From Terriglobia bacterium (GTDB lineage: Bacteria > Acidobacteriota > Terriglobia > Bryobacterales > Bryobacteraceae), in assembly GCA_021324185.1 (NCBI GenBank), contig JAJPJN010000072.1:1-36537 (forward strand): a stretch of DNA of 36,537 nt, written 5' to 3'. Positions 5,391 to 25,670 of this stretch are shown here, piece after piece. The notes beneath the pieces were generated by a model that did no database searches, was not told where the DNA came from, and saw nothing but the letters and a program-made list of their open reading frames with translations. Within the stretch, counting starts at the first letter, position 1. Each line of letters opens with the position of its first letter. A program made the position numbers and the translations under genes.

Positions 5391-7514
5391 CTATTTCACA
5401 TCCGCCGTGCGGTCGCCTTCATAGTGCATGATGTGGTAGTAAGCTTCCCAGCCGTCCCATAAGACCGGGGGCGCGAGGTGCGTTTCCGGATCGTCGATGA
5501 ACTTTGTCATGACTTCCACGATCTGCCGGGTGCGGTAGATTCCGGTGAGCCAGTCGCCGCGATACCAGTGTTTCCATTTGCCGTATTCGGCGGCTGCTTC
5601 GGCCCGCTCAATTTCATCGAAGGCGCTTAAGGCTTCCGCGAGATCTTTGTGCGCCTGCGCCGTGTCTTTGTTTTGCGCGTCCTGGATGGCTTTCGAAACC
5701 AGGTAGAGAATGCGATTGCTTTGGCGATTGATGGCGATCATCGCGAGCACTTGGGCGTGATAAAAAGGCCGGCGCAGGGTGGGGATGAGCGGCTCAATCG
5801 CAATGGCGTCTTTCCAGACTGCATCCCAGCGCGATTGCGCATCGCCACATTGTTGAATTTCCCTTGCGACGGTCTGGCGCAGCCATTCTTTTCCGGCCGG
5901 CCGCATCGATGCGCCCGGCAGAAGCACATGCGGCGGAGACCACTTGGGGGCTTGGCTCGGTATGGAATAGAGCGGGGCGTCGATCATATAGGTCAGCAAC
6001 ATCATCCGGGATTCAGTGTGATAGAGCTGATCACCGTATTCGCGCGGCGGATCTCCGAAATGCGCCGGCGCTTTGAAGTACTGTTTGTAGAGTTCAACCA
6101 GCTTCGGCGCGGCTTTCTCGCCAAATTCCTTTGTGGACCAGCGGCGGTAAAATTCGTCCGGATTGGTGGCGACGGGCAGGCCATTCCAGGCGGCATCCAT
6201 AACTGCCTGGGTGGACATGGAGACGGGGCGAATGTCGCTGGTGTTGACGAGAAAATAGCTCGTCGCGTCTGCTTTGATGTAGCGGCCCATTTCCGAAAAG
6301 CTCCGCTCCAGCGGAACCATTTCCGTCAGTTGATTGGCACGCCCGTTCATCATGGCGACGTGATCGTAAATGCCCTGCCCGGCAGTTACATCGCCGTGGT
6401 CTTGTATGTAGCCGTAACCGTCGTCCGCCCAAACGGTTGAGACGCCGGAAGGAATCTTGAGTAAGCCTTGCTGCACGAGGCGCGCGCCTTCCTGCCATAG
6501 ATTCGTGACAAATTTCGCATCGGGGCGGACGGCGCGCACGATGCCGATCTGATCTGCAATCGCTTTGCTGATCAGTTGGGCGAGCGCTTTGTTATCGTTC
6601 TGAACGCTGGGGTCCATGGATGCATAGGTCACATCCGATAGCCCGCGCAGTCCAACGGACCAAACGACTTCCTGATTAGGCAGATAGGAATTGACGGCGT
6701 TGCGCCAGGCACGCTCGAGAATCTCCGGGTGCGTTGTGTAGTTGTACGGGACATTCTGCGGCCAGCGCGCGACGTTCAATCCCAGCGGGATGGCGTGATG
6801 CTGGGTTACGATGAGGCCGCGTTTGGCGGCCAGCTTCACTTGCGCATCGTCGGGGAAAATCCAGGTGCCCGGCGCAACCATATTGCCTTTGAGACGCAGG
6901 ATGGTTTCGTAAATTTTGTTCCAAACGTCTAAAGAGATTCCGGTGTTTTCGTTTGAGGGAGCAGGCGCCCAGCCGGTCAGCATGTCTTCGTCGTTGATGA
7001 AGAGGCCGCGGTATTTAAAGACGGGCGGGCGGAAGCGCTCTTCGAGCGGCTCAGGAATGGTGATGGAGCTGCGATGGGCGGGCTCACTGTCGGTCCAGTA
7101 ATACATGGGATCGACGCCGAGATATTTTTCCGAAAATTGATAGACAGCATAGATCGTGCCGCGCATGTCGGCCCCCGCAAGCACGATGTTGTTGGCGCGG
7201 GCTGAGATCGAAAAAGACTCGGGCGCACTTAATCCGGCGGGGCGCAACGGATCGGGAAGGTGCGCCGGTTCGCCGATCAGAATGGCGGGGGCGGCGGCAT
7301 TCGTTTCTGCGCTGAGAATTTTCAGAGGCTCGCCCATGACCTTGCGGAAATCATTGGCCAGATCTTCCGCGGCCTGGCGGACGGGCTCAGGTTCATCCGG
7401 CGCAAGAACGATTACGGCGGTGCGATCGAGGACAATGCCGCGGCTGTTCCGGGCGGACGAAGATGACGTGGCGGCCAGGACGGCGGCGGTAACAACAGCG
7501 AGCACGAATTTCAT
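5391..7514 (-). CDS. GH115 alpha-(4-O-methyl)-glucuronidase
   Basis: A 707-residue exported enzyme. The ATG at 7514 gives a clean signal peptide (MKFVLAVVTAAVLAATSSS); upstream in-frame codons back to 7628 read as non-coding. Residues about 30-160 form the N-terminal domain (AILIGEP, GADMRGTIYAVYQFSE). The barrel begins at RGLFINDEDMLTGWAP (about 169) with KGNMVAPGTW (209), WSVGLRGLSD (285) and VWADDGYGY (361), all GH115 hallmarks. GH115 releases MeGlcA from internal as well as terminal xylose, complementing GH67. It ends about residue 707 (GDRTADVK), so the large C-terminal beta domain of many GH115 proteins (often 800-1000 residues in total) is absent or very short. It runs opposite to the other locus genes and shares a 98-nt upstream region with the MFS gene at 7613. 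Confidence 0.92.
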   Translation of the reverse strand: MKFVLAVVTAAVLAATSSSSARNSRGIVLDRTAVIVLAPDEPEPVRQAAEDLANDFRKVMGEPLKILSAETNAAAPAILIGEPAHLPDPLRPAGLSAPESFSISARANNIVLAGADMRGTIYAVYQFSEKYLGVDPMYYWTDSEPAHRSSITIPEPLEERFRPPVFKYRGLFINDEDMLTGWAPAPSNENTGISLDVWNKIYETILRLKGNMVAPGTWIFPDDAQVKLAAKRGLIVTQHHAIPLGLNVARWPQNVPYNYTTHPEILERAWRNAVNSYLPNQEVVWSVGLRGLSDVTYASMDPSVQNDNKALAQLISKAIADQIGIVRAVRPDAKFVTNLWQEGARLVQQGLLKIPSGVSTVWADDGYGYIQDHGDVTAGQGIYDHVAMMNGRANQLTEMVPLERSFSEMGRYIKADATSYFLVNTSDIRPVSMSTQAVMDAAWNGLPVATNPDEFYRRWSTKEFGEKAAPKLVELYKQYFKAPAHFGDPPREYGDQLYHTESRMMLLTYMIDAPLYSIPSQAPKWSPPHVLLPGASMRPAGKEWLRQTVAREIQQCGDAQSRWDAVWKDAIAIEPLIPTLRRPFYHAQVLAMIAINRQSNRILYLVSKAIQDAQNKDTAQAHKDLAEALSAFDEIERAEAAAEYGKWKHWYRGDWLTGIYRTRQIVEVMTKFIDDPETHLAPPVLWDGWEAYYHIMHYEGDRTADVK

Positions 7515-7590
7515 GAGAATGATTGTATTCCTTTTTGTAGGCGACTCAAACAAATTGACGGCCCGGGGGCTCGATACAATCGCGGGATGT

Positions 7591-7601
7591 GTTCTCAGAA
7601 C
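7591..7601. promoter_or_regulatory. Perfect odd palindrome in the GH115/MFS divergent region
   Basis: GTTCT-C-AGAAC, a perfect 5-bp-arm palindrome 11 nt upstream of the GTG of the sugar porter. A weak promoter-like pair lies just upstream on the plus strand (TTGACG at 7555-7560, TACAAT at 7575-7580), but its 14-nt spacer is short. The position between two divergently read uronoxylan genes suits an operator for a sugar-responsive repressor. No regulator gene is in the window, so the role is an inference. Confidence 0.3.
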
Positions 7602-7612
7602 TGTGAGCCAAC

Positions 7613-8941
7613 GTGCAACTAAATTCATTCCTACTTAGAAGTTCCGGCGTAGCGGCGTTAGGCGGGCTGCTCTTCGGCTTTGATACGGCGGTGATAGCGG
7701 GGACAACGGATGCGCTGCGCGGCACGTATCATTTGACTCCGGGAATGGTTGGCATCACGGTAGCGAGCGCGCTGTGGGGCACCATTTTGGGCGCCATGTT
7801 CGCGGGGATACCGGGGGACCGTTACGGCCGCCGGGACAGCTTGCGCGTTATGGCGGTGTTTTATGTGCTTTCGGCGGTGGGCTGCGCTTTTGCGTGGAAC
7901 TGGTACGCGTTGCTCGCATTTCGGCTCATCGGCGGGCTGGGAATCGGCGGATCCTCTGTTCTGGGGCCGATGTATATCGCGGAGGTTTCACCGGCGAAGT
8001 GGCGGGGGCGTCTGGTCGGTTTCTTTCAATTCAATGTGGTCGTGGGAATTCTGCTGGCGTACCTTTCGAACTATCTGATCGGGCAGGCGGGATTTGGCGC
8101 TACGGAGTGGCGTTGGAAGCTGGGCGTCTCGGCCATTCCGGCGGTTCTTTTCCTCCTGATGCTGTTCGGCATTGCGCGCAGCCCGCGCTGGCTGGTGGCA
8201 AAGAAGCGGCTGGATGAGGCGCGGCACGTGCTGAAGAAGATCGGCGAACCGAACATAGAAGCCGAGATACAAGACATCGCTGCTTCGATTGATATCGAGC
8301 ATTCGCACGAGCGCGAGCCGTTCTTCTCCCGGAAATATGCGCGCCCGATATTTTTGGCGGTGGCCATCGGATTTTTCAATCAGATGCTGGGCGTCAATGC
8401 GATTCTCTACTACCTGAACGATATCTTCTTGCGAGCAGGGTTCAGCAAAGTCTCAGGCGATCTGCAGGCCGTCGCGGTCGGCCTGACAAATCTGGTTGCG
8501 ACGGTGATCGCGATGTCTTTGATCGATCATGCCGGGCGACGTACGCTGCTGCTGATCGGATCGGTGGGGTGCGCTGCATCGCTAGCGGGAGTAGCGTGGG
8601 TGTTTGGAACACAGAGTCATCAGTCGCTGCTGGTTTGGCTGCTGGTAGGCTTTATTGCGTTCTTCTCGTTCTCACAAGGCGCGGTGATCTGGGTCTATAT
8701 CAGCGAGATTTTCCCGAATCGCGTGCGCGCGAAGGGACAGAGCCTCGGGAGCTTTACTCATTGGGCGATGAACGCGGTGGTTTCGGGGCTGTTTCCGGTT
8801 GTGGCCGCGCATTCGCACGCAGCGCCGTTCGCATTCTTCTCCTGCATGGCGATTGTGCAGTTCTTTGTGGTGCTGTTTCTGTTTCCGGAAACCAAGGCAG
8901 TGTCGCTTGAGGATATGCAACGGAGATTGGGAATTGCGTAA
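7613..8941 (+). CDS. MFS sugar porter family transporter
   Basis: A 442-residue inner-membrane symporter. GTG at 7613 is used because an in-frame TGA lies at 7604 and no other good start precedes the first membrane helix. The sugar-porter signature follows at once (GGLLFGFDTAVIAGTTDALR), then the loop motif GDRYGRRDS between helices 2 and 3, RLIGGLGIGGSSVLGPMYIAE in helix 4, an R-S-P-R-W loop and VYISEIFPNRVRAKGQS before helix 11. About twelve hydrophobic segments are visible. Family members import hexoses or pentoses with protons, so xylose or a released oligosaccharide unit is plausible here. It starts the plus-strand operon and ends 11 nt before a second MFS gene. Confidence 0.88.
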   Translation: MQLNSFLLRSSGVAALGGLLFGFDTAVIAGTTDALRGTYHLTPGMVGITVASALWGTILGAMFAGIPGDRYGRRDSLRVMAVFYVLSAVGCAFAWNWYALLAFRLIGGLGIGGSSVLGPMYIAEVSPAKWRGRLVGFFQFNVVVGILLAYLSNYLIGQAGFGATEWRWKLGVSAIPAVLFLLMLFGIARSPRWLVAKKRLDEARHVLKKIGEPNIEAEIQDIAASIDIEHSHEREPFFSRKYARPIFLAVAIGFFNQMLGVNAILYYLNDIFLRAGFSKVSGDLQAVAVGLTNLVATVIAMSLIDHAGRRTLLLIGSVGCAASLAGVAWVFGTQSHQSLLVWLLVGFIAFFSFSQGAVIWVYISEIFPNRVRAKGQSLGSFTHWAMNAVVSGLFPVVAAHSHAAPFAFFSCMAIVQFFVVLFLFPETKAVSLEDMQRRLGIA

Positions 8942-8952
8942 GCCGCGGCAGT

Positions 8953-10227
8953 ATGTCTATGGAAAAGGGCAGTAGTGTCTCCATAACGGATCAACCAAAG
9001 CCCGCCGCGATGTCGCGATCCGAGTGGATTCTGCTGGCGTTGCTGATCGCTTCCATTTTCGTGAACTATATCGATCGCGGCAATTTGTCTATTGCCGCTC
9101 CTTTGATGCAGAAAGACCTGCATCTATCGCCCGTTCAGATCGGCTTGCTGCTTTCCGGTTTCTTTTGGAGCTACGCGGTGCTGCAGCTTATTGGATTTTC
9201 GGGCTGGCTGAGCGATGTTTTGCCGGTGGGATTTGTATTGGCGGGCGGCTTCGTTATCTGGTCTCTAGCGACATTCAGCACCGGGCTTTTATCGAGTTTT
9301 GCAGCTCTGTATGCGGCGCGCATGCTTCTGGGCGCAGGAGAATCGCTGGCGTATCCGTGTTACTCGCGCGTGTTTGCGAGCGACTTCGCGCAACACCATC
9401 GAGGCCGCGCCAACGCTCTGCTGGACGCGGGCTCCAAGCTGGGACCTGCGGTTGGTTCGCTTCTGGGCGGCGTGCTGCTGGTGACTGCCGGATGGCGCTG
9501 GTTCTTTATTCTTCTCGGGGTGGTTGCGCTAGTCTGGCTGATTCCGTGGTTGAAATATATGCCGCATTCCTACGCGAAGCGGCCTTGTCATACACGGCCG
9601 GCTCATATCCTGTCGCTTTTGCGCCGGCGCAGCGCCTGGGGCACTTTTCTGGGACACTTCTGCGGCAACTACTTCTGGTTTTTCCTGCTGACGTGGCTTC
9701 CCACGTATCTGGTGAATGAGCGGCAATTTTCCATTCAGCGGATGACGGTGATCAACTCCGCGGCGCTATTCATTACCGCGGCCGGTACGGTAACGGCGGG
9801 TTTCGTCTCGGATCGTGTGATTGCACGCGGTGCGCCGTTGGGCACGGTCAGGCGGACGGTCGTCGTGAGTGGATTGATCTGCTCGTCGGTGATCCTGGCG
9901 GTGGCGTTTTTACCCGGCACGGTTGCTGCTATTGCACTTTTGTTTTTCTCGTGTCTGGCGTTCGGCGCCTACACATCGAATCATTGGGCGATTACACAGA
10001 CGCTGGCGGGCGCTCGCATGGCGGGCCGCTGGACAAGCATTCAGAACGGCATCGGAAACTTATCAGGCGTGGCTGCACCGCTCGTGGCCGGGTACGCCGT
10101 TGAGGCGACCGGGACGTCGAAAGCCGCATTTGTGGTGTCGGCGATCATTGTGCTCGTTGGCGCAGTGATGTGGGGCGTGGTGGTGGGGCCGATCTCAGAA
10201 GTGGACTGGAGCCCCGATTCGCGGTGA
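8953..10227 (+). CDS. MFS transporter, anion:cation symporter (hexuronate-type)
   Basis: A 424-residue inner-membrane transporter of the ACS branch of the MFS. NYIDRGNLSIAAPLMQKDL in helix 1 is the family fingerprint, followed by GLLLSGFFWSYAVLQLIGFSG, RMLLGAGESLAYPC and SNHWAITQTL near helix 10. ACS members include ExuT and GudP, which carry glucuronate, galacturonate or glucarate with protons. Next to two alpha-glucuronidases and a KDG-kinase-like gene, glucuronate or methyl-glucuronate is the natural cargo. About 12 transmembrane helices are visible. The start at 8953 is followed two codons later by a second ATG (8959), which is equally usable. The stop overlaps the next gene's GTG (GTGA). 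Confidence 0.85.
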   Translation: MSMEKGSSVSITDQPKPAAMSRSEWILLALLIASIFVNYIDRGNLSIAAPLMQKDLHLSPVQIGLLLSGFFWSYAVLQLIGFSGWLSDVLPVGFVLAGGFVIWSLATFSTGLLSSFAALYAARMLLGAGESLAYPCYSRVFASDFAQHHRGRANALLDAGSKLGPAVGSLLGGVLLVTAGWRWFFILLGVVALVWLIPWLKYMPHSYAKRPCHTRPAHILSLLRRRSAWGTFLGHFCGNYFWFFLLTWLPTYLVNERQFSIQRMTVINSAALFITAAGTVTAGFVSDRVIARGAPLGTVRRTVVVSGLICSSVILAVAFLPGTVAAIALLFFSCLAFGAYTSNHWAITQTLAGARMAGRWTSIQNGIGNLSGVAAPLVAGYAVEATGTSKAAFVVSAIIVLVGAVMWGVVVGPISEVDWSPDSR

Positions 10228-11177
10228 AGACTGAAGCCGGCATACTCTGTTGCGGAAATATCGTGTGCGACATTCTGGTGCAGCCCGTGGAGGAGTTGAA
10301 CTGGGGCGAGCCGACGAGCTTTGTGGACACGATCGAGCAGCGATGCGGCGGCAGCGCGGCCAGCACAGCGCGCACGCTGGCAATCCTGGGTGTTCCGGTG
10401 CGTCTGCTGAGCGCCGTGGGACGGGACAATCAGGCGCGATTTGTGCTGGAGGTAATTCGCCTGGCCGGAGTGGATACGGAGCACGTCAGCCGGGATGCGG
10501 GCCGCACGGCATGCACGGTTGCTCTGGTGAATAGCTGCGGCGACCGCAAATTTTTTCACCGGTGCGGGCCGGCCGTTGGCGCATCCGGCATCGATCCTAC
10601 TCTATACGCGGGCATGGCGCATTTTCATCTATGTGGAGTTTTCGTGACGCCTGGTCTTCGAGAGCAAGCACCTGAATTGCTGAAGAGCGCACGGGCGGCA
10701 GGGCTTAGGACGTCGTTCGATACGAATTGGGATCCGCGCCAGCGCTGGCTTGACACACTGGAACCGTGCCTTCCGAGTGTGAACCTTCTTTTTATGAACG
10801 AGGTGGAAGCGGTGAGAATCACGGGACAGACGGAGCCGCGGCTGATGGCGCGGTGGGCTATTGCGCGTGGTGTTCCGACTTGCGTATTGAAGCTGGGCGC
10901 CCGCGGGTGCGCCATCTATACGGATGACGTGGAGATCCTTTGTCCGGCATTTGAGGTGGAGGCGCGCGACACGACCGGAGCGGGCGATTGCTTTGCCGGC
11001 GGTTTTCTTTCGGCACTGCATCGCGGCGCCTCGCTCGCCGAGGCCGGACTGTTTGCTAATGCGGTGGCGGCCATGAGTGTGGAGCAAGTCGGAGCGGTAG
11101 AAGGCGTTCGCAGCGCGGCGGAGACGGAAGCGTGGATGCGCAGGACACCGCAACGAAAGGCTACGGCGAATGTCTGA
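10224..11177 (+). CDS. PfkB-family carbohydrate kinase, probable KDG kinase
   Basis: A 317-residue ribokinase-fold kinase. GTG at 10224 overlaps the stop of the MFS gene (GTGA) and places GILCCGNIVCDILVQP, the usual first strand, at residue 6. PfkB signature 1 region: CGGSAASTARTLAILG (41-56). Signature 2: DTTGAGDCFAGGFL (249-262), with catalytic base D255 and the GAGD anion hole. Expected reaction: ATP-dependent phosphorylation of 2-keto-3-deoxy-gluconate, the last common step of glucuronate or glucarate breakdown before KDPG aldolase. The substrate is inferred from the neighbours; PfkB sequence alone does not separate KDG from fructose or adenosine kinases. The stop overlaps the following ATG by 8 nt. 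Confidence 0.85.
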   Translation: MKTEAGILCCGNIVCDILVQPVEELNWGEPTSFVDTIEQRCGGSAASTARTLAILGVPVRLLSAVGRDNQARFVLEVIRLAGVDTEHVSRDAGRTACTVALVNSCGDRKFFHRCGPAVGASGIDPTLYAGMAHFHLCGVFVTPGLREQAPELLKSARAAGLRTSFDTNWDPRQRWLDTLEPCLPSVNLLFMNEVEAVRITGQTEPRLMARWAIARGVPTCVLKLGARGCAIYTDDVEILCPAFEVEARDTTGAGDCFAGGFLSALHRGASLAEAGLFANAVAAMSVEQVGAVEGVRSAAETEAWMRRTPQRKATANV

Positions 11178-13125
11178 TCAACCGGAAGATCTCTCGCGCC
11201 GGCATTTCCTCAAGCAAAGCGGGGCGAGCATCGCGGCCGCACCCGTTATTTCGGCACAGCAGGGCGACCCCCAACCCCATGGCTTTCAACCGGACGCCAA
11301 GCCGGAGAAGATTTCGGACAATCTTTTTTTGCTGGAAGACACCTGCAACGTGTATTTGATCCGCAGGGGAGATCGCGGGCTGTTGATCGATTTCGGATCG
11401 GGCAAGATTCTCGATTTTCTAGGGGAGCTGGGCGTCTCGCGCATCGATTGGATTCTCCACACGCATCATCATCGCGACCAGGCGCAAGGGGATGGACGCG
11501 CGGTTGCGCAGCGGATTCCGATCGCGGTTCCTGAACATGAGCGCGAATTTTTTGAAGCCGCTGAGAATTTCTGGCGCAACCGGCGCATCTTCGAGCTCTA
11601 CGACGTCAAGAACGATTTTTTTTCGCTGACCCAGAACGTGCCGGTGGCGGCTCTGCTGCACGATTACAGCACGTTCCACTGGGGTACAACGGAACTGTTT
11701 GTTCAACCCACTCCGGGACATACGCCGGGCTCGATTACGCTGATCTGCCAAGTGGACGGGAAGAGAGTTGCGTTTTCGGGCGATCTGATGCACTCGCCGG
11801 GCAAGGTGCAAACGCTCTACGATCTGCAGTATTACTATCAGGAGCACGAGGGCGTCGATCTTTCGATTTATTCGCTGGCGGAGCTTACCAAATTAAAGCC
11901 GGATCTTCTCTGCCCGTCGCACGGCCGGCCCGTTCCGGAGCCGCTGGCGGGGATGGCCGAGCTTTCGCAGAAGCTGCGCGACTGGCATCGCTATTGGTAT
12001 GCCCACCCACCCACATCCGACCTGGAACCGTATGCAGTCACGCCGCATCTGATCGCAAACACGGACACGACGTCTTCGTTCTACGCGATTGTCAGTAACA
12101 GCGGCAAAGCTTTGTTTGTCGATTACGGCTCAGCGAGCTGGACGTTTTTCCAGGTTTTCACGCGTTATGTGGGCGTGCGCAATCACATGCGCTTTGTGGA
12201 ACACAGCATCGAGAAGATACGCGCGCGCTACGGCATGAAGTCCATTGACGTCGCGATGCCAAGCCATGTGCACGACGATCATCTTAATGGCTTCCCGTAT
12301 CTGACGCGGCGTTACAGGACCAAAATCTGGTGCTATGAAAACATGGTGGAGGTTCTGGAGAACCCGCGAGGATTGAATATCGGCTGCATTCTGGGCGAGC
12401 CGATTAAGGTGGACCGCTCCTTTCGCGATAAAGAGACGTTCCGTTGGGAAGAATTCGAATTCACCGTGGTGCACTCGCCCGGCCACACGAATTATCAGAT
12501 GGCGATGTTCGCCACCATTGACGGCGCGCGCATTGCGTTCACCGGGGATGCCTTCTTCAACGATCCGGAGCATCCCAATTCTCTGCGGCATAACCTTATT
12601 TACCGGAACGAGGTGAGGAGCGGCGACCATTTGAAATCGATTCGGAACATTTTGGATTTCGAACCGAACCTGATTGCGCCGGGGCATGGCAGGCCGTTTC
12701 TGGTGGATCGCGAGGCGGCGCTGAATTTCGAAGAGCGGGCCAAGAAGCAGGATGCGTTTTTCCGCGATTTGATTGCCGATCCCGATCCTAATATGGGAAT
12801 CGATCCTTCCTGGCTCAAAATATATCCGTATCAAATGAGCATCCGGCCGGGCGAGGCGAAAAACGTCGAAGTGCGTTTTAGAAATTACCGGCCGCGCCGG
12901 GTTGAGATCGCGGCGATGTTTGTTCTACCCGATGGCTGGCGCGCAAGTCCACCCAGAATTTTAATTTCGGCGGAAGCAAACTCCGAAGCCAAGGTACAGG
13001 CTGCGATTTCAATTCCAGCGGGCTACTCGAATCTTTTTTCCCGCGTTGCGATTGCGCTGGACGTGATGGCGGATAACAAATATCTGGGGCAGATCGCGGA
13101 AGCGGTGGTGGACCTGGGCGCATGA
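11170..13125 (+). CDS. Tat-exported protein with two tandem metallo-beta-lactamase-fold domains
   Basis: A 651-residue protein. Its N-terminus has a Tat motif (SRRHFLKQSGASIAAAPVISA). Domain 1 (about 45-290) has H99-x-H101-x-D103-Q104, so the last His of HxHxDH is Gln. It also keeps H184 (TPGHTPGS), D205 (FSGD) and H251 (PSHG). Domain 2 (about 300-530) has a canonical H366-x-H368-x-D370-H371, H439 (SPGHT), D460 (FTGD) and H506 (APGHG). Residues about 550-651 form a beta-rich Ig-like tail. The fold predicts a zinc or iron hydrolase acting in the periplasm; the substrate is unknown. It overlaps the kinase gene by 8 nt and the GH31 gene by 4 nt, so the three are translated together. A role in ester or lactone cleavage of sugar conjugates is possible but unsupported by sequence. 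Confidence 0.8.
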   Translation: MSDQPEDLSRRHFLKQSGASIAAAPVISAQQGDPQPHGFQPDAKPEKISDNLFLLEDTCNVYLIRRGDRGLLIDFGSGKILDFLGELGVSRIDWILHTHHHRDQAQGDGRAVAQRIPIAVPEHEREFFEAAENFWRNRRIFELYDVKNDFFSLTQNVPVAALLHDYSTFHWGTTELFVQPTPGHTPGSITLICQVDGKRVAFSGDLMHSPGKVQTLYDLQYYYQEHEGVDLSIYSLAELTKLKPDLLCPSHGRPVPEPLAGMAELSQKLRDWHRYWYAHPPTSDLEPYAVTPHLIANTDTTSSFYAIVSNSGKALFVDYGSASWTFFQVFTRYVGVRNHMRFVEHSIEKIRARYGMKSIDVAMPSHVHDDHLNGFPYLTRRYRTKIWCYENMVEVLENPRGLNIGCILGEPIKVDRSFRDKETFRWEEFEFTVVHSPGHTNYQMAMFATIDGARIAFTGDAFFNDPEHPNSLRHNLIYRNEVRSGDHLKSIRNILDFEPNLIAPGHGRPFLVDREAALNFEERAKKQDAFFRDLIADPDPNMGIDPSWLKIYPYQMSIRPGEAKNVEVRFRNYRPRRVEIAAMFVLPDGWRASPPRILISAEANSEAKVQAAISIPAGYSNLFSRVAIALDVMADNKYLGQIAEAVVDLGA

Positions 13126-15266
13126 CGAGAAGACAATTCGGCAAATTTACTGCGGGCCTTAGCGCGCTGGCCGCGGCGAGCGCGCAGCAGACAGCTACGA
13201 AATCCGAACTGCCCGGCGTATGGCGCCTGCGATTCGGGACACCGGAAGCCATAACTCCGGTGAGCACTCGATATTATTCGCCTGCGCTCGACAGAATGGC
13301 GACCCTGCCTGCTGCGGATGCGCCTCCGATCGCGCTCCAATCTATCTCCGGCTATTCATCGAAGCGGGGATATGAAGTCAGGCTGCCGCTGGCGCCCGGC
13401 GAAGTGGTCTACGGACTGGGGCTTCAGTTTCATTCGGTGTTGCAGCGCGGCTTGAAGAAGAAGCTGCGCGTGAATGCGGACCCGGTGGCCGATTTAGGCG
13501 ATTCACACGCGCCGGTACCTTTTTATGTATCTGCGCAGGGCTACGGAGTGTTCATCGACTCGGCGCGTTACGTGAACATCTATTGCGGAAACAAGATCAA
13601 GAAGCATCGCGGCCAGACGCCCCCAGACGCCGCAGTGGCGGCGCGCATCGCGCAATTGCCTGCTGCCTATGAGCGCTATCACATAGCGGAAGCGAGCGAA
13701 GTTCTGATTGAGGTCCCCAAGGCGCAGGGTGTCGATATTTATCTGTTTGCCGGGCCTACGATGCGCGAGGCGGTGCAGCGCTATAACCTGTTCGCGGGCG
13801 GTGGGCCGTTGCCGCCACGGTGGGGCCTGGGGTTTTGGTACCGCTGCTACGAAAAGTTCAGCCAGAAAGAAGTTTTGGATTTGGCCGCCGGGCTACGGAA
13901 TGAACGCATCCCGTGCGATGTGATCGGGCTGGAGCCGGGCTGGCAATCGCATTCGTATTCGTGCTCGTTCGTATGGAGCGATCTTTTTCCCGATCCTGCG
14001 GCGATGATCGCAGAGTTGAAGAAATCAAACTACAACATTAACCTCTGGGAGCACGCTTTTACGCATCCGAGTTCGCCGCTGCACGCGCCACTCTATGACG
14101 TGTCCGGCGATTACGAAGTGTGGCGCGGTCTGGTTCCGGATTTTCTGGACGCGCGCGCGAGAGAGATCTTCGGCGGCTATCATGACCGCGAATTTGTCTC
14201 GAAGGGCGTTTCCGGATTCAAATTAGACGAGTGCGATAACTCCGATTACACCGGCAACTGGTCGTTTCCGGAACTCGGACAATTTCCTTCGCAGGCGGAT
14301 GGAGAGCAGATGCACTGTCTGTTTGGCCTGCACTATCAGCAAACGATTCAATCGCAGTACGACCGGCGGCAGACGCGGACGTTCGGCCTGGTCCGGTCAT
14401 CGCATGCTTTAGCTGCGCCATTCCCTTACGTGCTTTATAGCGATTTATACGATCACCGGCAGTTTGTACGCGCGTTGGTGAACAGCGGATTTTCCGGCTT
14501 GCTGTGGTGCCCGGAAGTGCGCGATGCGGCGAATACGGAGGATCTCATCCGGCGCTTACAAACGGTGATCTTCTCACCCCTCGCAATGGTGAATGCGTGG
14601 TACATCAAAAATCCGCCGTGGAAGCAGGTGGAACGGGAGGCGAACAACGCCGGCAAATTCAGCAAAGACTGGGAAGACACGGCAGCGATTTGCCGCCGCC
14701 TGATCGAGGTGCGGATGCAGTTCGTGCCGTATCTCTACGCGGCTTTCGCCCGTTATCATCTCGAGGGCGTTCCGCCGGTGCGCGCGCTGGTAATGGATTA
14801 TCCGGACGACCTGAAGGCGTGGACCGTTGACGATCAATATATGTTCGGGGACGACCTGCTTGTTGCACCGCTGTTTGCCGGTCAAAGCGGCCGCGTTGTC
14901 TATCTGCCCGAAGGCGAATGGTTCGACTTCTGGACCGGAGCTAAAACGGCCGGCTCACAAAGCGTGATGCGGAGCGGCCCGCTCGACTACATTCCGGTGT
15001 TCGTCAAGTCGGGCGCGCTTCTGCCTTTGGCGCAGCCTACTTTACACACGAACGATCCCGAATCGTTCACGCTTACGGTGCGTGCATACGGCAGCGGTGA
15101 ACGTGGAGCGGTGCTGTACGAGGATGATGGCTCGATCAAGCCGGTGTTCACGCGTGTGAATCTGACGTGGGATCCGCGGCAGCCTTCCGGAAACATGGAA
15201 CGTTCGGGGACGGGACCGGCTGCGCGATACACGGTGAAGCGATGGGAGCGGGTTCAGCCGGGCTAA
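13122..15266 (+). CDS. GH31 glycoside hydrolase, Tat-exported, substrate unknown
   Basis: A 714-residue enzyme beginning ATG at 13122 (ATGA overlap). A Tat-like leader is present (TRRQFGKFTAGLSALAAASA). The N-terminal beta domain (about 30-225) includes VVYGLGLQF and YGVFIDSARYVNIY. The barrel starts at PPRWGLGFWYRCYEKFSQ (231), with CDVIGLEPGWQ in strand 1. The nucleophile is D369 in GFKLDECDN, and the likely acid/base is D441 in VLYSDLYDH. The C-terminal beta domains carry DDLLVAPLF and VLYEDDGS. GH31 includes alpha-glucosidases, alpha-xylosidases and others; the KLDECD nucleophile neighbourhood is not the KTDFGE seen in YicI-type alpha-xylosidases. In this locus an alpha-xylosidase or alpha-galactosidase-type activity on hemicellulose side chains is a fair guess. 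It is convergent with the SDR gene 21 nt downstream; no clear terminator is seen between them. Confidence 0.88.
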   Translation: MTRRQFGKFTAGLSALAAASAQQTATKSELPGVWRLRFGTPEAITPVSTRYYSPALDRMATLPAADAPPIALQSISGYSSKRGYEVRLPLAPGEVVYGLGLQFHSVLQRGLKKKLRVNADPVADLGDSHAPVPFYVSAQGYGVFIDSARYVNIYCGNKIKKHRGQTPPDAAVAARIAQLPAAYERYHIAEASEVLIEVPKAQGVDIYLFAGPTMREAVQRYNLFAGGGPLPPRWGLGFWYRCYEKFSQKEVLDLAAGLRNERIPCDVIGLEPGWQSHSYSCSFVWSDLFPDPAAMIAELKKSNYNINLWEHAFTHPSSPLHAPLYDVSGDYEVWRGLVPDFLDARAREIFGGYHDREFVSKGVSGFKLDECDNSDYTGNWSFPELGQFPSQADGEQMHCLFGLHYQQTIQSQYDRRQTRTFGLVRSSHALAAPFPYVLYSDLYDHRQFVRALVNSGFSGLLWCPEVRDAANTEDLIRRLQTVIFSPLAMVNAWYIKNPPWKQVEREANNAGKFSKDWEDTAAICRRLIEVRMQFVPYLYAAFARYHLEGVPPVRALVMDYPDDLKAWTVDDQYMFGDDLLVAPLFAGQSGRVVYLPEGEWFDFWTGAKTAGSQSVMRSGPLDYIPVFVKSGALLPLAQPTLHTNDPESFTLTVRAYGSGERGAVLYEDDGSIKPVFTRVNLTWDPRQPSGNMERSGTGPAARYTVKRWERVQPG

Positions 15267-22045: not shown

Positions 22046-22118
22046 TGGGCCCTGAAGGATTTGAACCTTCGACCAAAGGATTATGAGTCCTCTGCTCTGA
22101 CCGCTGAGCTAAGGGCCC
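22046..22118 (-). tRNA. tRNA with CAT anticodon (tRNA-Ile2 or elongator Met)
   Basis: A full 73-nt cloverleaf on the minus strand: acceptor GGGCCCT/AGGGCCC, D-arm GCTC...GAGC, anticodon arm GAGGA-CTCATAA-TCCTT, T-arm GAAGG-TTCAAAT-CCTTC, discriminator A; CCA is not encoded. Anticodon CAT means methionine or, after lysidine modification, isoleucine. Acceptor pairs C4-G69 and C5-G68 are the determinants TilS uses on E. coli tRNA-Ile2, and GGGCCCU differs from E. coli Ile2 GGCCCCU at only one position, so Ile2 is favoured. The first ten bases overlap the end of the membrane-protein gene upstream. The 138 bases between the nuclease stop and the tRNA hold no gene and no obvious terminator. Confidence 0.92.
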
Positions 22119-24439
22119 GCGTGTGTTTCACCGACTACCGTAGCATGATCCGTAGCCAGGCTCAGGTCCGCCCTCATGCTCTGCCCGCGCAGGCGCTCCG
22201 CGTAGCGAAAAACAAAGGCGTAGAGCACGAATGCCGGCGTAAAGATGACGGCAAGTGCAACCGTGTCGCTGAGAATCCATGGTTGCTGCACGAACGCGTG
22301 CTGCGAGGCAATGGTGGGCAGCAGCAACACGCAAATCGTCTCCACGCCCCTGAACAACAGCGTCCAGTTCACCACGCGAAAAAAACAATTGGCGGTGCGC
22401 AGATGCCGGTACCAGATGATCACCACAAACATCATGAGTCCTAGAAACCAGGCATGCAGGCCTTCGCGAAGTAGGCCGCTGCTGCCCCAACCCCAATACG
22501 GTACGAACAACGCAAAAGGAATGACGAACAGCGCCATGAGCCAAGCGCGCGCTTTTCGATAACCCACATAGACCAGCCGCAGCAGCGCCGCCAGGAAGAA
22601 TGCGATGCCTGCACCGAACGGAAGCGTGCTCCAATACGAGACGAAGAACTGGATAACAGGCGGCGAGAATTCATAAATGGATTGAAGTTCGAGACTCTGG
22701 CGGTGAAAAAGGATCAGGTTCAGCGGTACCAGCGTATTCAGAAGAGAATCAGCCCGCGAGCGAAACCAATTGGCGACCGTGGGCGGCGCGCCGGCTGTCA
22801 TTTTGAAATATTCGAAAAAGTAATCCTGCGCATAGTGCCTCTCATTGATTACGCGCCAAAGCACGAGCCAGAAGCCAACGCCTAGACTCATCGGAAAAAT
22901 TTCGCGAATCCAGCTATACGGAACGGAGGGCTTCCGCTTCTGCAGGATGATGATGCCAATGAGAGCCGGAAGGCAAATCAAGGCAGAAGGATGTACCAGA
23001 TACCCGAAACCCAGCACTAATCCTGCAAGCAAGTACCGAGTTTTGAAGAGCAGGTACGCGGCGAGCAGAACGCATCCGGCCTCCGGAAGCTTGGGCCAAG
23101 TGAAGTAAATCTCGTGAACTGTGAACGGGGCTGTGGCGGCGATCAGAAATGCGAAGAACGCCCACATATCCGGCAGAAACAGTTTCGCAAGACCGAATAC
23201 GGTGAGAAGTCCACAGCACGCGAGAACAATCATAGCGATGCGATACGCTTCTAATCCCTCGGGATCGAAGGGGCACCAGGCTTGGTCAGGCCAGGTGTGC
23301 AGCACATTCACACGCGCGGAGAGGACAATTGGCGTTGCGGCAAGACCGGCGATCGGGCCGCGATGCGAAAAGCTCCAGGGCGCGTACATACTGCCGGCAA
23401 ACTGCCCGAATGGAGATTCGCGGAAGCGCACGAGCTGTATCGTGTGGTACGAAAAGCGGCTATCAGAGCGTGCGCCTACCTCGTAGGTCCGCGAATTTTT
23501 TGCGGCGAATAATTCGCCCTCCGGACCCAGCGAGTAAATCGTCTTGGCCGTTGCAAGCGATACAAGTAATAGGAAGACCAACAACACCTGCCGTTCCGCT
23601 GTCACAATGTAAGTCGACAAAGGAAAACGGATGACGTTATAAGTAGCAAACCCGATCATCAGAAATAGGCCTATGCGGCAGATCAGGCGCGGGCTGAGTT
23701 GGGGCGGCCCGATCCATGCAGCCAGTCCGACGAATGCGAACAGTGCCATCCCAAGCAGAGGAATCCAGATGAAGGGCAGGTTGGGCCGCTTCCGCCTCAG
23801 AATCAAACCAGGAGATAGAAAGGCGACAATTGCGGTGGCGGCAGTAAGTAGAATCCAGAGCAGTTGCTTACAGATCTCAACATTGTTCACGGAACGGATG
23901 ACAAAGGGCTCGGAGAAACCGAGCCAGCCTTGCCAATCGCGCGGCGCTGCGATAGCGAAGATTCGAAATTTTAGCGGCCGTTCATCTTCCGGGAGTGAAA
24001 ACGTTTTTAACCACCACGCCTGTCCGGGAATCAATTCGGGCGGAACGGGGAGACGGATTACGCCGGCTTTGGCGGTTTGAACTTCAATGCCAAGCTGATT
24101 ATCGAAGCGATTCGGATAACCTGCGATGAATATTCCAAAGTGAGCGGCCGGTTTGTACCAGGCGCTGTAAGCCCAGCCTGCAGGGGGCAACGGAGTCCCC
24201 CAAGACGCGTACATTTTGACTGATCCCTTAAATGGCGGCACATCCATGTAGCCAGGTACTTTATCCGGTGCGAAGGCGCGCCCCGAAATCTCGGGTGCGG
24301 CGGGGTCCGTCTGCGGGAGCGCGGCAACATCGATCGAGACGCGGTGCAGCTTCAACGCCGCGCAACAGATGCAGTAGGCGACAGCCGTTAAACAGAGGGC
24401 GATAGCAAGTCTATCCGTCGTTCGCGAACGTACGGCCAT
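22109..24439 (-). CDS. Multi-pass membrane protein, possible GT-C-like glycosyltransferase
   Basis: A 776-residue integral membrane protein from ATG 24439; an alternative ATG at 24484 would overlap hutF by 26 nt. The first helix is LAIALCLTAVAYCICCAAL. An extracytoplasmic segment of roughly 170 residues, rich in W/Y/G and beta strand, follows (about 40-205). About ten to twelve helices follow, beginning LLWILLTAATAIVAFLSPGL, with WSFSHRGPIAGL and FTWPKLPEAG in loops. The size, helix pattern and a charged first long loop resemble GT-C glycosyltransferases that use lipid-linked sugars, but I see no diagnostic motif, so the function is open. Only 20 nt separate hutF from its start, yet it has no obvious link to histidine. 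The stop codon TAG (22109-22111) lies inside the tRNA gene. Confidence 0.7.
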   Translation of the reverse strand: MAVRSRTTDRLAIALCLTAVAYCICCAALKLHRVSIDVAALPQTDPAAPEISGRAFAPDKVPGYMDVPPFKGSVKMYASWGTPLPPAGWAYSAWYKPAAHFGIFIAGYPNRFDNQLGIEVQTAKAGVIRLPVPPELIPGQAWWLKTFSLPEDERPLKFRIFAIAAPRDWQGWLGFSEPFVIRSVNNVEICKQLLWILLTAATAIVAFLSPGLILRRKRPNLPFIWIPLLGMALFAFVGLAAWIGPPQLSPRLICRIGLFLMIGFATYNVIRFPLSTYIVTAERQVLLVFLLLVSLATAKTIYSLGPEGELFAAKNSRTYEVGARSDSRFSYHTIQLVRFRESPFGQFAGSMYAPWSFSHRGPIAGLAATPIVLSARVNVLHTWPDQAWCPFDPEGLEAYRIAMIVLACCGLLTVFGLAKLFLPDMWAFFAFLIAATAPFTVHEIYFTWPKLPEAGCVLLAAYLLFKTRYLLAGLVLGFGYLVHPSALICLPALIGIIILQKRKPSVPYSWIREIFPMSLGVGFWLVLWRVINERHYAQDYFFEYFKMTAGAPPTVANWFRSRADSLLNTLVPLNLILFHRQSLELQSIYEFSPPVIQFFVSYWSTLPFGAGIAFFLAALLRLVYVGYRKARAWLMALFVIPFALFVPYWGWGSSGLLREGLHAWFLGLMMFVVIIWYRHLRTANCFFRVVNWTLLFRGVETICVLLLPTIASQHAFVQQPWILSDTVALAVIFTPAFVLYAFVFRYAERLRGQSMRADLSLATDHATVVGETHAGP

Positions 24440-24458
24440 CGGAAATCGGAACAGATCC

Positions 24459-25670
24459 TTATCGCCACAACCGCTCTTGGACATTCTGAAACGCGCTGAT
24501 GATTTCGTCTTGATCCGGGTGACGGCCTGCTGAGATAACCTGTTTGCCGTTTACAAAGATATCGCGAATCGCCGCCGTGTGCGCAGCAAATACGATCTGA
24601 GCAGCTAAGTCGCCGCCTTCCGATCCGGCCAGCGATGGATGGTCCGGGTCGATGGTAAGGTAGTCGCCTTCGGTTGGAGGCATCTTCAGAGCGTGAGATC
24701 CGCTTTCTGCCAGCCCCCGGTAAAGCACGACGGCGGGCAAGATAGCGCGCGACAGTTTCTTCATGCGCAGGTGATACTCCAGGCAGCGCGCATCTTCGAG
24801 CAAATCAATCTGGGCGTTGCTATCGGTGCCGAAGCAGATCTTCACACCTTTCTGAAGCAAAAGATCCGCGGGGACCGGGCCGTCGCCCAGATTCCGTTCC
24901 GTGGTGGGACAAGCGCATACGGTGGATTGCGCGGCGCCCAGGCAGGTTGCTTCCTGCTCGGTGATATGGATGGCGTGAACGGCGGTGAAGTCGGCGCCGG
25001 GAATGCCGTTCTCACGCAGCAGCTCGACCGGGCGCTGCCGGTGCTCCGCCATGCATTCTTCAATTTCAGCGGGCTGTTCAGCCACGTGCATATGAAGGGG
25101 TAGATTTTTTGACCGCGCATATTCGGCAAGGCGCACCATGGAACGAAGTTCCAGCGCACGCACGCTGTGCAAAGCGATTCCGACCGGCGCGGCGGCGGAT
25201 TTTATTAGTTCCTCCGTTTCGTGAATAAAAGCATCCACATCGCGAAAAATAAATCTGCTTTGCAACGGGTTGGCAGGCTTTCGCCACCCGGCGCGTTCGT
25301 ACGCGGTCCGCAAAAGAACAATCCGGATGCCTACATCGCCGGCCGCGCGGATCACCTGATGCGCCAGCAGATTGGGATCTTCGTAACGCGAGCCGCCCGG
25401 CGCATGATGCAGATAATGAAACTCGGCGACTGTGGTGATGCCGGCGAGCAGCATTTCCATATAGGCCATGCGCGCGACATCGTAAACGTCCTCTGGGGTG
25501 AGGCGATTGGCAGCACGATACATGGCTTCACGCCAGGTCCAAAAACTGTCGGCCGCCGCCGCTGTGCGATGCTCGGTGCGCCCGCGAATGACTCGCTGGA
25601 AGGCGTGCGAATGCGCGTTTACGAAACCCGGAACCATGCTCCGCTCGTTGAACCCTGCCGTAGCGGCCAC
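24459..25670 (-). CDS. hutF: Formimidoylglutamate deiminase, N-terminally short
   Basis: HutF converts N-formimino-glutamate to N-formyl-glutamate and ammonia. The amidohydrolase core is clear: [49 protein letters not shown] and [22 protein letters not shown] at 25670 (403 residues) and ATG at 25637 (392 residues) are the realistic starts. HutF proteins are usually about 450 residues, so around 45 N-terminal residues, which should build the small beta domain, are missing. The longer frame back to 25784 is Arg-rich and lies out of frame within hutI, so it is not believed. The gene overlaps hutI by 52 nt with the preferred start. An indel, sequence error or real loss could explain this. It needs HutG to finish the pathway; hutG is not in the window. 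Confidence 0.85.

Follow-up and report, generated by a model that had tools for sequence, protein, structure and literature searches.

The contig JAJPJN010000072.1 (assembly GCA_021324185.1) of a Terriglobia soil bacterium, analysed here over positions 1-36,537 (the window), carries a gene for a protein in which two complete metallo-beta-lactamase (MBL) folds, half 1 and half 2, follow each other in one chain, and both sets of metal-ligand positions are fixed among the relatives of this protein. The only departure of half 1 from the usual ligands, Gln104, appears from the alignments to be a fixed trait of the family and not random decay, and the decay that half 1 does undergo is placed by sequence comparison in side branches and not in the window protein. 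As a whole the protein is read tentatively, at somewhat less than even probability, as an exported metallo-hydrolase belonging to an ancient family of tandem MBLs, where half 2 would perform most of the hydrolysis and the substrate would be a sugar-derived lactone or ester. The features of the gene are given below; the counts refer to the window and 45 related loci (46 rows), where lower denominators are the rows with a residue at that position, or to a wide set of 65 aligned tandem proteins.

11170-13125, + strand: tandem MBL and NEW3-like gene, ATG start, open reading frame (ORF) of 651 aa (Pfam; AlphaFold2)
11170-11280, + strand: N-terminus with twin-arginine (Tat-like) motif SRRHFLK, R10 and R11 (ORF, conservation, low model confidence)
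11284-12000, + strand: MBL fold 1, aa 39-277 (Pfam, AlphaFold2, VIA-align 2)
11458-11481, + strand: HTHHHRDQ motif, aa 97-104 (H99-x-H101-x-D103-Q104), where Q104 at 11479-11481 replaces the usual last motif His
11719-11721, + strand: H184 (PGH), fold 1 ligand position, 46/46
11782-11784, + strand: D205 (SGD), fold 1 bridging ligand position, 46/46
11920-11922, + strand: H251 (SHG), fold 1 ligand position, 46/46
12022-12771, + strand: MBL fold 2, aa 285-534 (Pfam, AlphaFold2, VIA-align 2)
12265-12282, + strand: canonical HxHxDH motif, aa 366-371 (H366-x-H368-x-D370-H371), 46/46 and 64/64 in the wide set
12484-12486, + strand: H439 (PGH), fold 2, His in 42/45; in the wide set 46 His and 18 Gln of 64
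12547-12549, + strand: D460 (TGD), fold 2 bridging ligand position, 45/45
12685-12687, + strand: H506 (GHG), fold 2, 43/43
12802-13122, + strand: C-terminal immunoglobulin (Ig)-like, NEW3/NPCBM-associated-like domain, aa 545-651 (Pfam, tail-only model, Foldseek)

The Pfam Lactamase_B model scored 107.5 bits on the 651-aa protein, split over two stretches, and PF00753 matched each half on its own, at 11338-11922 and 12220-12687. The AlphaFold2 model, built with 35 homologues as input, reached a predicted local distance difference test score (pLDDT) of 89 and contained both MBL folds in full. Re-examination of the Foldseek matches with VIA-align 2 aligned residues 39-277 with B1-type lactamases (best Z 20.8) and residues 285-534 with L1 and other B3 lactamases (best Z 22.1); such matches of a predicted model are evidence of fold, not of function. 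Membership in the MBL-fold superfamily thus stands on PF00753 above its cut-off, on the folds, and on a ligand set that is complete in half 2 and lacks only the last motif His in half 1. The tail modelled alone had pLDDT 93.5 and Ig- and MSP-like matches in the Protein Data Bank (PDB) by Foldseek; Pfam NEW3/NPCBM_assoc was found at E <=0.1 in 32 of 35 family members (best 1.8e-07), the window protein's own score of 17 bits (E 0.0066) lying below the curated cut-off of 24.4. Residues 1-37 had pLDDT <50 and include the twin-arginine motif, in which R11 is kept in 40 of 40 rows and R10 in 39 of 40, so that export by the twin-arginine translocation (Tat) route is predicted. These results agree with the sequence-only reading, which had described two complete MBL folds and an Ig-like tail in one chain, had located HxHxDQ in the first half and the canonical motif in the second (H101, Q104 and H368 are found as it numbered them), and had proposed structure prediction as a check; of its Tat-exported chain the conserved motif is confirmed and export itself stays a prediction.

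In half 1 six of the seven ligand positions are standard and the sole change is Gln104. The residues H99, H101, Q104, H184, D205 and H251 are invariant in all 46 rows, and D103 is Glu in two of them, while among 26 control MBLs the 25 with a readable motif (row L101 is a fragment) all end it in His. Because Gln104 is invariant in the family while every such control has His, it is best taken as a family trait of half 1. The possibility that half 1 is degenerate in the window protein was rejected on the same invariance of the ligand positions and by the fixation of Gln104, and the term degenerate metal site, applied earlier to the sequence, proved too strong.

The wide set, in which distant rows were aligned automatically, extends this picture: 64 of its 65 proteins have half 2 (63 of these rows are distinct), and Q104 is present in 54 of 64. 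Half 1 keeps all seven positions as in the window in 53/65 (two with Glu for D103), and in the other 12, all in side branches, it is short of one to four. The PGH His alone is missing in L020 and L078; the PGH His and Gln104 in L021; the PGH His, Gln104 and D103 in L081; three positions are gone in one Deinococcus row (L129) and four in another (L091). In L022 and L024-L028 the same four positions (H101, Q104, H184, H251) are lost and H99, D103 and D205 are kept. The latter six form a deeply diverged branch, in which half 2 has PGQ; of the four starts read there, those of L022, L025 and L028 are lipoprotein-like and that of L027 is twin-arginine. On the whole-protein tree the fewest changes required were 4 for Q104, 3 for H184, 2 for H251 and 2 for H439. 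The suggestion that one half became structural is therefore not supported for the window protein, whose ligand positions are invariant, and something like it appears to have taken place in side branches, where up to four of seven positions are lost.

Half 2 retains HxHxDH, D460 and H506 in 64/64 proteins of the wide set. Since this motif is kept everywhere and the di-metal site is canonical, half 2 is the likely main catalyst and would carry out most of the hydrolysis. With Gln in place of the last motif His, half 1 may bind one metal firmly and the second weakly, or may have altered chemistry, and the Ig-like tail may aid docking. The opening of a sugar-derived lactone or ester might take place outside the cytoplasm and precede its uptake and phosphorylation, which is a weakly held step of the scheme.

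The origin of the tandem was considered as internal duplication, which the sequence-only reading had suggested, or as fusion of two MBLs that are related but had evolved separately. Comparison of the halves by hhalign gave probability 99.9, E 8e-35 over 213 columns, which indicates that they are homologous and share one superfamily; a descent of the halves from different families, which would have contradicted the earlier suggestion, is not what was found. In a first profile comparison, where other frames of the fetched loci including MBLs of eight genomes served as controls, the half 1 profile gave 78.6 bits to half 2 of the window (best control 58.5) and the half 2 profile 68.5 bits to half 1 (best control 46.1), the most decayed members scoring under the controls (minima 23.3 and 11.2 bits). 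In 121 genomes of the class half 1 scored 42-70 bits with the half 2 profile, against 43-47 for clearly single-domain frames, a difference at the upper end that speaks against fusion; a 275-aa frame (G422:C293) at 56.8 bits has a half 1 match beside it and resembles a broken tandem. The half 1 profile, on the contrary, rated half 2 (44-80 bits) and single-domain MBLs (up to 65) similarly, as fusion would allow.

The domain trees, which included 24 of the 65 tandem proteins, were divided in the same way. A quick tree with more rows brought the halves together with support 96, in a group that also contained another, poorly filled MBL. In the careful tree, which omits rows d1_L091 and d1_L026 of half 1 as well as six other MBLs that were long or poorly filled, each half was one clade (100/100 for half 2, 98/92 for half 1), but the halves were grouped in 31% of bootstraps and half 1 stood beside seven single-domain MBLs with support 60/61. 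Holding the halves together survived the approximately unbiased test (p-AU 0.45), as did placing half 2 with the seven single-domain MBLs (p-AU 0.38, no rejection). A single origin of the tandem is well supported by the sequences in this sample, and internal duplication is plausible, its homology component confirmed and its preference over other relatives not singled out by the half 1 profile and the careful tree; fusion is quite possible, though it falls short of an even chance.

The surroundings of the gene bear on the substrate. Three neighbours in the window are as follows.

8953-10227, + strand: transporter of the major facilitator superfamily (MFS), the second MFS gene, best model TIGR00893 (galactonate type), below cut-off
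10170-11177, + strand: PfkB sugar kinase gene, 8-base overlap with the MBL gene start, own start uncertain
13122-15266, + strand: glycoside hydrolase family 31 (GH31) gene, 4-base overlap with the MBL gene end

Because the MBL gene overlaps PfkB by 8 bases and GH31 by 4, the run MFS-MFS-PfkB-MBL-GH31 suggests one transcript, and on this ground a sugar-acid lactone or ester is the best guess for the substrate, held with low confidence. Genes for GH115, GDSL, GH67 and enolase-superfamily proteins adjoin this run. The GH31 gene likewise starts twin-arginine-like (MTRRQFGKF), and its product may use the same export route. Elsewhere in the window (22109-24484) an ORF of 791 aa that has no Pfam match at 1e-3 adjoins a histidine-utilisation-like cluster of amidohydrolases, urocanase and an aromatic amino acid lyase.

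The related loci were compared through flanks that were called by a simple script and that in many cases end at contig ends. Orthologues of the second MFS gene (57%) and of PfkB (51%) adjoin the MBL gene in L057, and an orthologue of the second MFS gene (59%) in L031, in both cases in a gene order that differs from the window; the short contig L067 holds a fragment 84% like the first MFS gene of the window. In L032 the MBL gene adjoins a ROK gene and a D-arabinono-lactone-oxidase-like gene, and in a Chloroflexi locus a solute-binding protein and a melibiase are found nearby. The Haladaptatus homologue lies amid sugar-acid genes, including one of the gluconolactonase family, and two Deinococcus homologues sit in glycosidase and kinase operons. 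Ten of the 46 loci (but not the window) carry in the flank a long protein of outer-membrane type, all of these proteins belonging to one BLAST cluster; that of L057 was the one named by Pfam, as an outer-membrane beta-barrel with carboxypeptidase-regulatory domain. Directly downstream of the closest homologue, on the opposite strand, L029 has a single-domain MBL gene (6972-7907). A conserved glucuronoxylan operon was rejected, the flanks of the 45 loci containing no match at 1e-10 for the GH67, GH115, GDSL and GH31 proteins of the window.

The family itself is widely but patchily distributed. Among the 45 loci found by the genome-contig scan 36 are labelled Acidobacteriota, two Chloroflexi, one Gemmatimonadetes, one a Latescibacteria metagenome-assembled genome (MAG) and two unplaced bacteria, the remaining being the rhizobial isolates Mesorhizobium loti and Bradyrhizobium agreste and one Roseovarius bin. 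From plasmid records come in addition Sinorhizobium terangae, M. loti 582, three Haladaptatus strains (Archaea), Nonomuraea and two Deinococcus; mis-binning is possible for MAGs, and named strains or isolates are the source of the rhizobial, Haladaptatus, Nonomuraea and Deinococcus records. Partial matches, one in Priestia (36% of the query) and 18 on plasmids, were set aside. A match at E 1e-80 or better occurred in 12 of 59 other genomes, and in a second set one at 1e-30 or better in 9 of 296 other genomes. Acidobacteriaceae and Bryobacterales MAGs are the nearest relatives, among those with names, of the genome that holds the window. The family spans several bacterial phyla and some archaea and is apparently undescribed, the plasmid-borne members being named, where a product name is given, only "MBL fold metallo-hydrolase". 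The Haladaptatus plasmid homologue (L090, 10001-11857) is intact, has 48% identity to the Mesorhizobium one, lies in a sugar-acid gene cluster and looks like inter-domain transfer. An acidobacterial homologue (L016, 1501-3429) has an in-frame TGA and L055, on an equally long contig, is similarly shortened, as pseudogene or assembly error; alignment A1 comprises 35 of the 46 rows, with fragments, interrupted frames and near-copies excluded.

Several observations weigh against the favoured reading of an exported, sugar-linked enzyme with half 2 as its main catalyst. Because H439 is Gln in 18/64 proteins (rhizobial, archaeal and other branches), half 2 is not canonical throughout the family. Proteins of various functions make up the closest relatives by structure and by sequence, LACTB2 at their head, which leaves the reaction a guess; the LACTB2, glyoxalase II and persulfide dioxygenase type (4ad9, 1xm8, 5ve3) is among the top matches by sequence and by Foldseek. 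In favour of the reading, on the other hand, lactonase and organophosphate-hydrolase lineages occur among the PDB entries related in sequence to half 1. Synonymous divergence (dS) is saturated in all three pairs that the window, L029 and L030 form, and the ratio omega is thus lacking for any pair with the window. The neighbour tally took 84 of 112 listed neighbours, 12 loci being passed over by choice and L042 having no MBL frame; the 28 outside it were 13 longer than 800 aa (five scanned separately) and 15 others (13 scanned separately). The commonest of the 84 were SRP54, sigma-54 regulators and MFS (4 each), with PfkB at 2, and most acidobacterial orthologues have unrelated neighbours without a common theme. 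S. terangae has fatty-acid, 3-keto-acid and amino-acid transport genes as neighbours, and Roseovarius has TRAP transport genes.

Since the neighbours of most orthologues, including rhizobial and Roseovarius ones, are not sugar-themed, the sugar link is local, and the proposed role in sugar catabolism is supported for the window and L057, has a matching setting around the distant Haladaptatus and Deinococcus homologues, and is not supported for most acidobacterial or for the rhizobial orthologues. A general detoxifying or signal hydrolase acting on a lactone or thioester, whose sugar-gene setting here is recent, would accord with the variable and, in S. terangae and Roseovarius, non-sugar neighbours and with the starts without signal of the rhizobial and Roseovarius versions and, by its annotated start, the Haladaptatus version. 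The MFS and PfkB orthologues that recur in L057 and the MFS orthologue in L031, in another order, together with the sugar settings in Haladaptatus, Deinococcus and Chloroflexi, make this alternative somewhat unlikely. UlaG-type sugar lactonases, which combine the MBL fold with a sugar lactone substrate, are single-domain and cytoplasmic.

Models of known MBL systems did not recognise the protein above their cut-offs: NCBIfam NF033105 (subclass B3 MBL) gave 61.2 bits against 240, the NCBIfam HARLDQ model 20.2 against 350, TIGR02651 (RNase Z) 16.1 against 292.95, TIGR03413 (GloB, glyoxalase II) 53.6 against 200.8, and the N-acyl-homoserine lactone (AHL) lactonase models AidB and YtnP 29.4 against 360 and 21.4 against 425. 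An antibiotic lactamase was rejected, the NCBIfam lactamase models lying far under their cut-offs among the best 25 of 27 matching families. Proteins of the LACTB2, glyoxalase II and persulfide dioxygenase type have one MBL domain, whereas the window protein has two. The matches listed for tandem MBLs in the literature concerned tRNase Z, CPSF and unrelated senses only, with no bacterial tandem family described among them and subscription papers sparsely covered. Those for the motif were B3-RQK and HARLDQ papers only, and those for MBLs with sugar acids or glucuronoxylan and for rhizobial MBLs contained no characterised tandem protein. No homologue of known function carrying Gln104 was found, so the earlier statement that no characterised protein of such make-up was known holds for these matches, tRNase ZL being a tandem of a different kind.

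The eukaryotic tRNase ZL (ELAC2, Trz1) offers a parallel for a half 1 that is already non-catalytic in the window protein, a binding or scaffold half whose ligands at most hold a structural metal. As described in PMC3714273, its N-domain has lost the metal residues and its C-domain has kept activity, and PMC7785958 likewise gives the N-terminal unit as having lost them. As in the window protein there are two MBL units per chain with the fully canonical one C-terminal; unlike the N-unit so described, half 1 of the window has six of seven standard positions and Gln, and side branches of the family, short of up to 4/7 half 1 positions, are part-way there. Losses in 12/65 homologues and a higher nonsynonymous divergence (dN) in half 1 than in half 2 in 7/8 homologue pairs argue for a scaffold role, but the seven positions are occupied in 53/65 and six are invariant in 46/46, so that this role is unlikely.

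Catalysis by both halves, on different substrates or in successive steps, with the Gln site of half 1 tuned to other chemistry, is inferred from sequence and is rather unlikely. It would suit the two fixed ligand sets and the constraint on both halves, omega being 0.04-0.14 in half 1 and 0.02-0.07 in half 2 in the 5/8 pairs with estimable dS. These omega values equally favour the main reading, as does the mean column identity of 63% in half 1, 63% in half 2 and 54% in the tail. B3-RQK MBLs with Gln at the last motif His (residue 121) exist and are active, as PMC10318434 reports, and with HARLDQ (CSR-1, SPR-1, SER-1) they share this exchange with half 1. PMC10318434 gives B3-RQK His118->Arg and His263->Lys in addition, with lowered metal affinity, whereas half 1 of the window has only Gln, H101 and H251 being His. 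Those further changes, as well as the damage to half 1 in side branches, count against two reactions.

The reading of an exported metallo-hydrolase with half 2 as main catalyst is retained as the tentative one. A broader proposal, rather doubtful at present, is an undescribed family of two-site enzymes with a recurrent His-to-Gln exchange peculiar to each half (the last motif His in half 1; the PGH His in half 2 of rhizobia, archaea and others), where the two sites would act in succession or in cooperation on a single sugar-derived substrate and side branches would represent several stages of half 1 decay.

In summary, the members of one family form a natural gradation that begins with two full ligand sets, passes through single losses and ends with a half 1 minus 4/7 positions, and with it the turn of one half of a double enzyme from catalyst to scaffold becomes directly testable.

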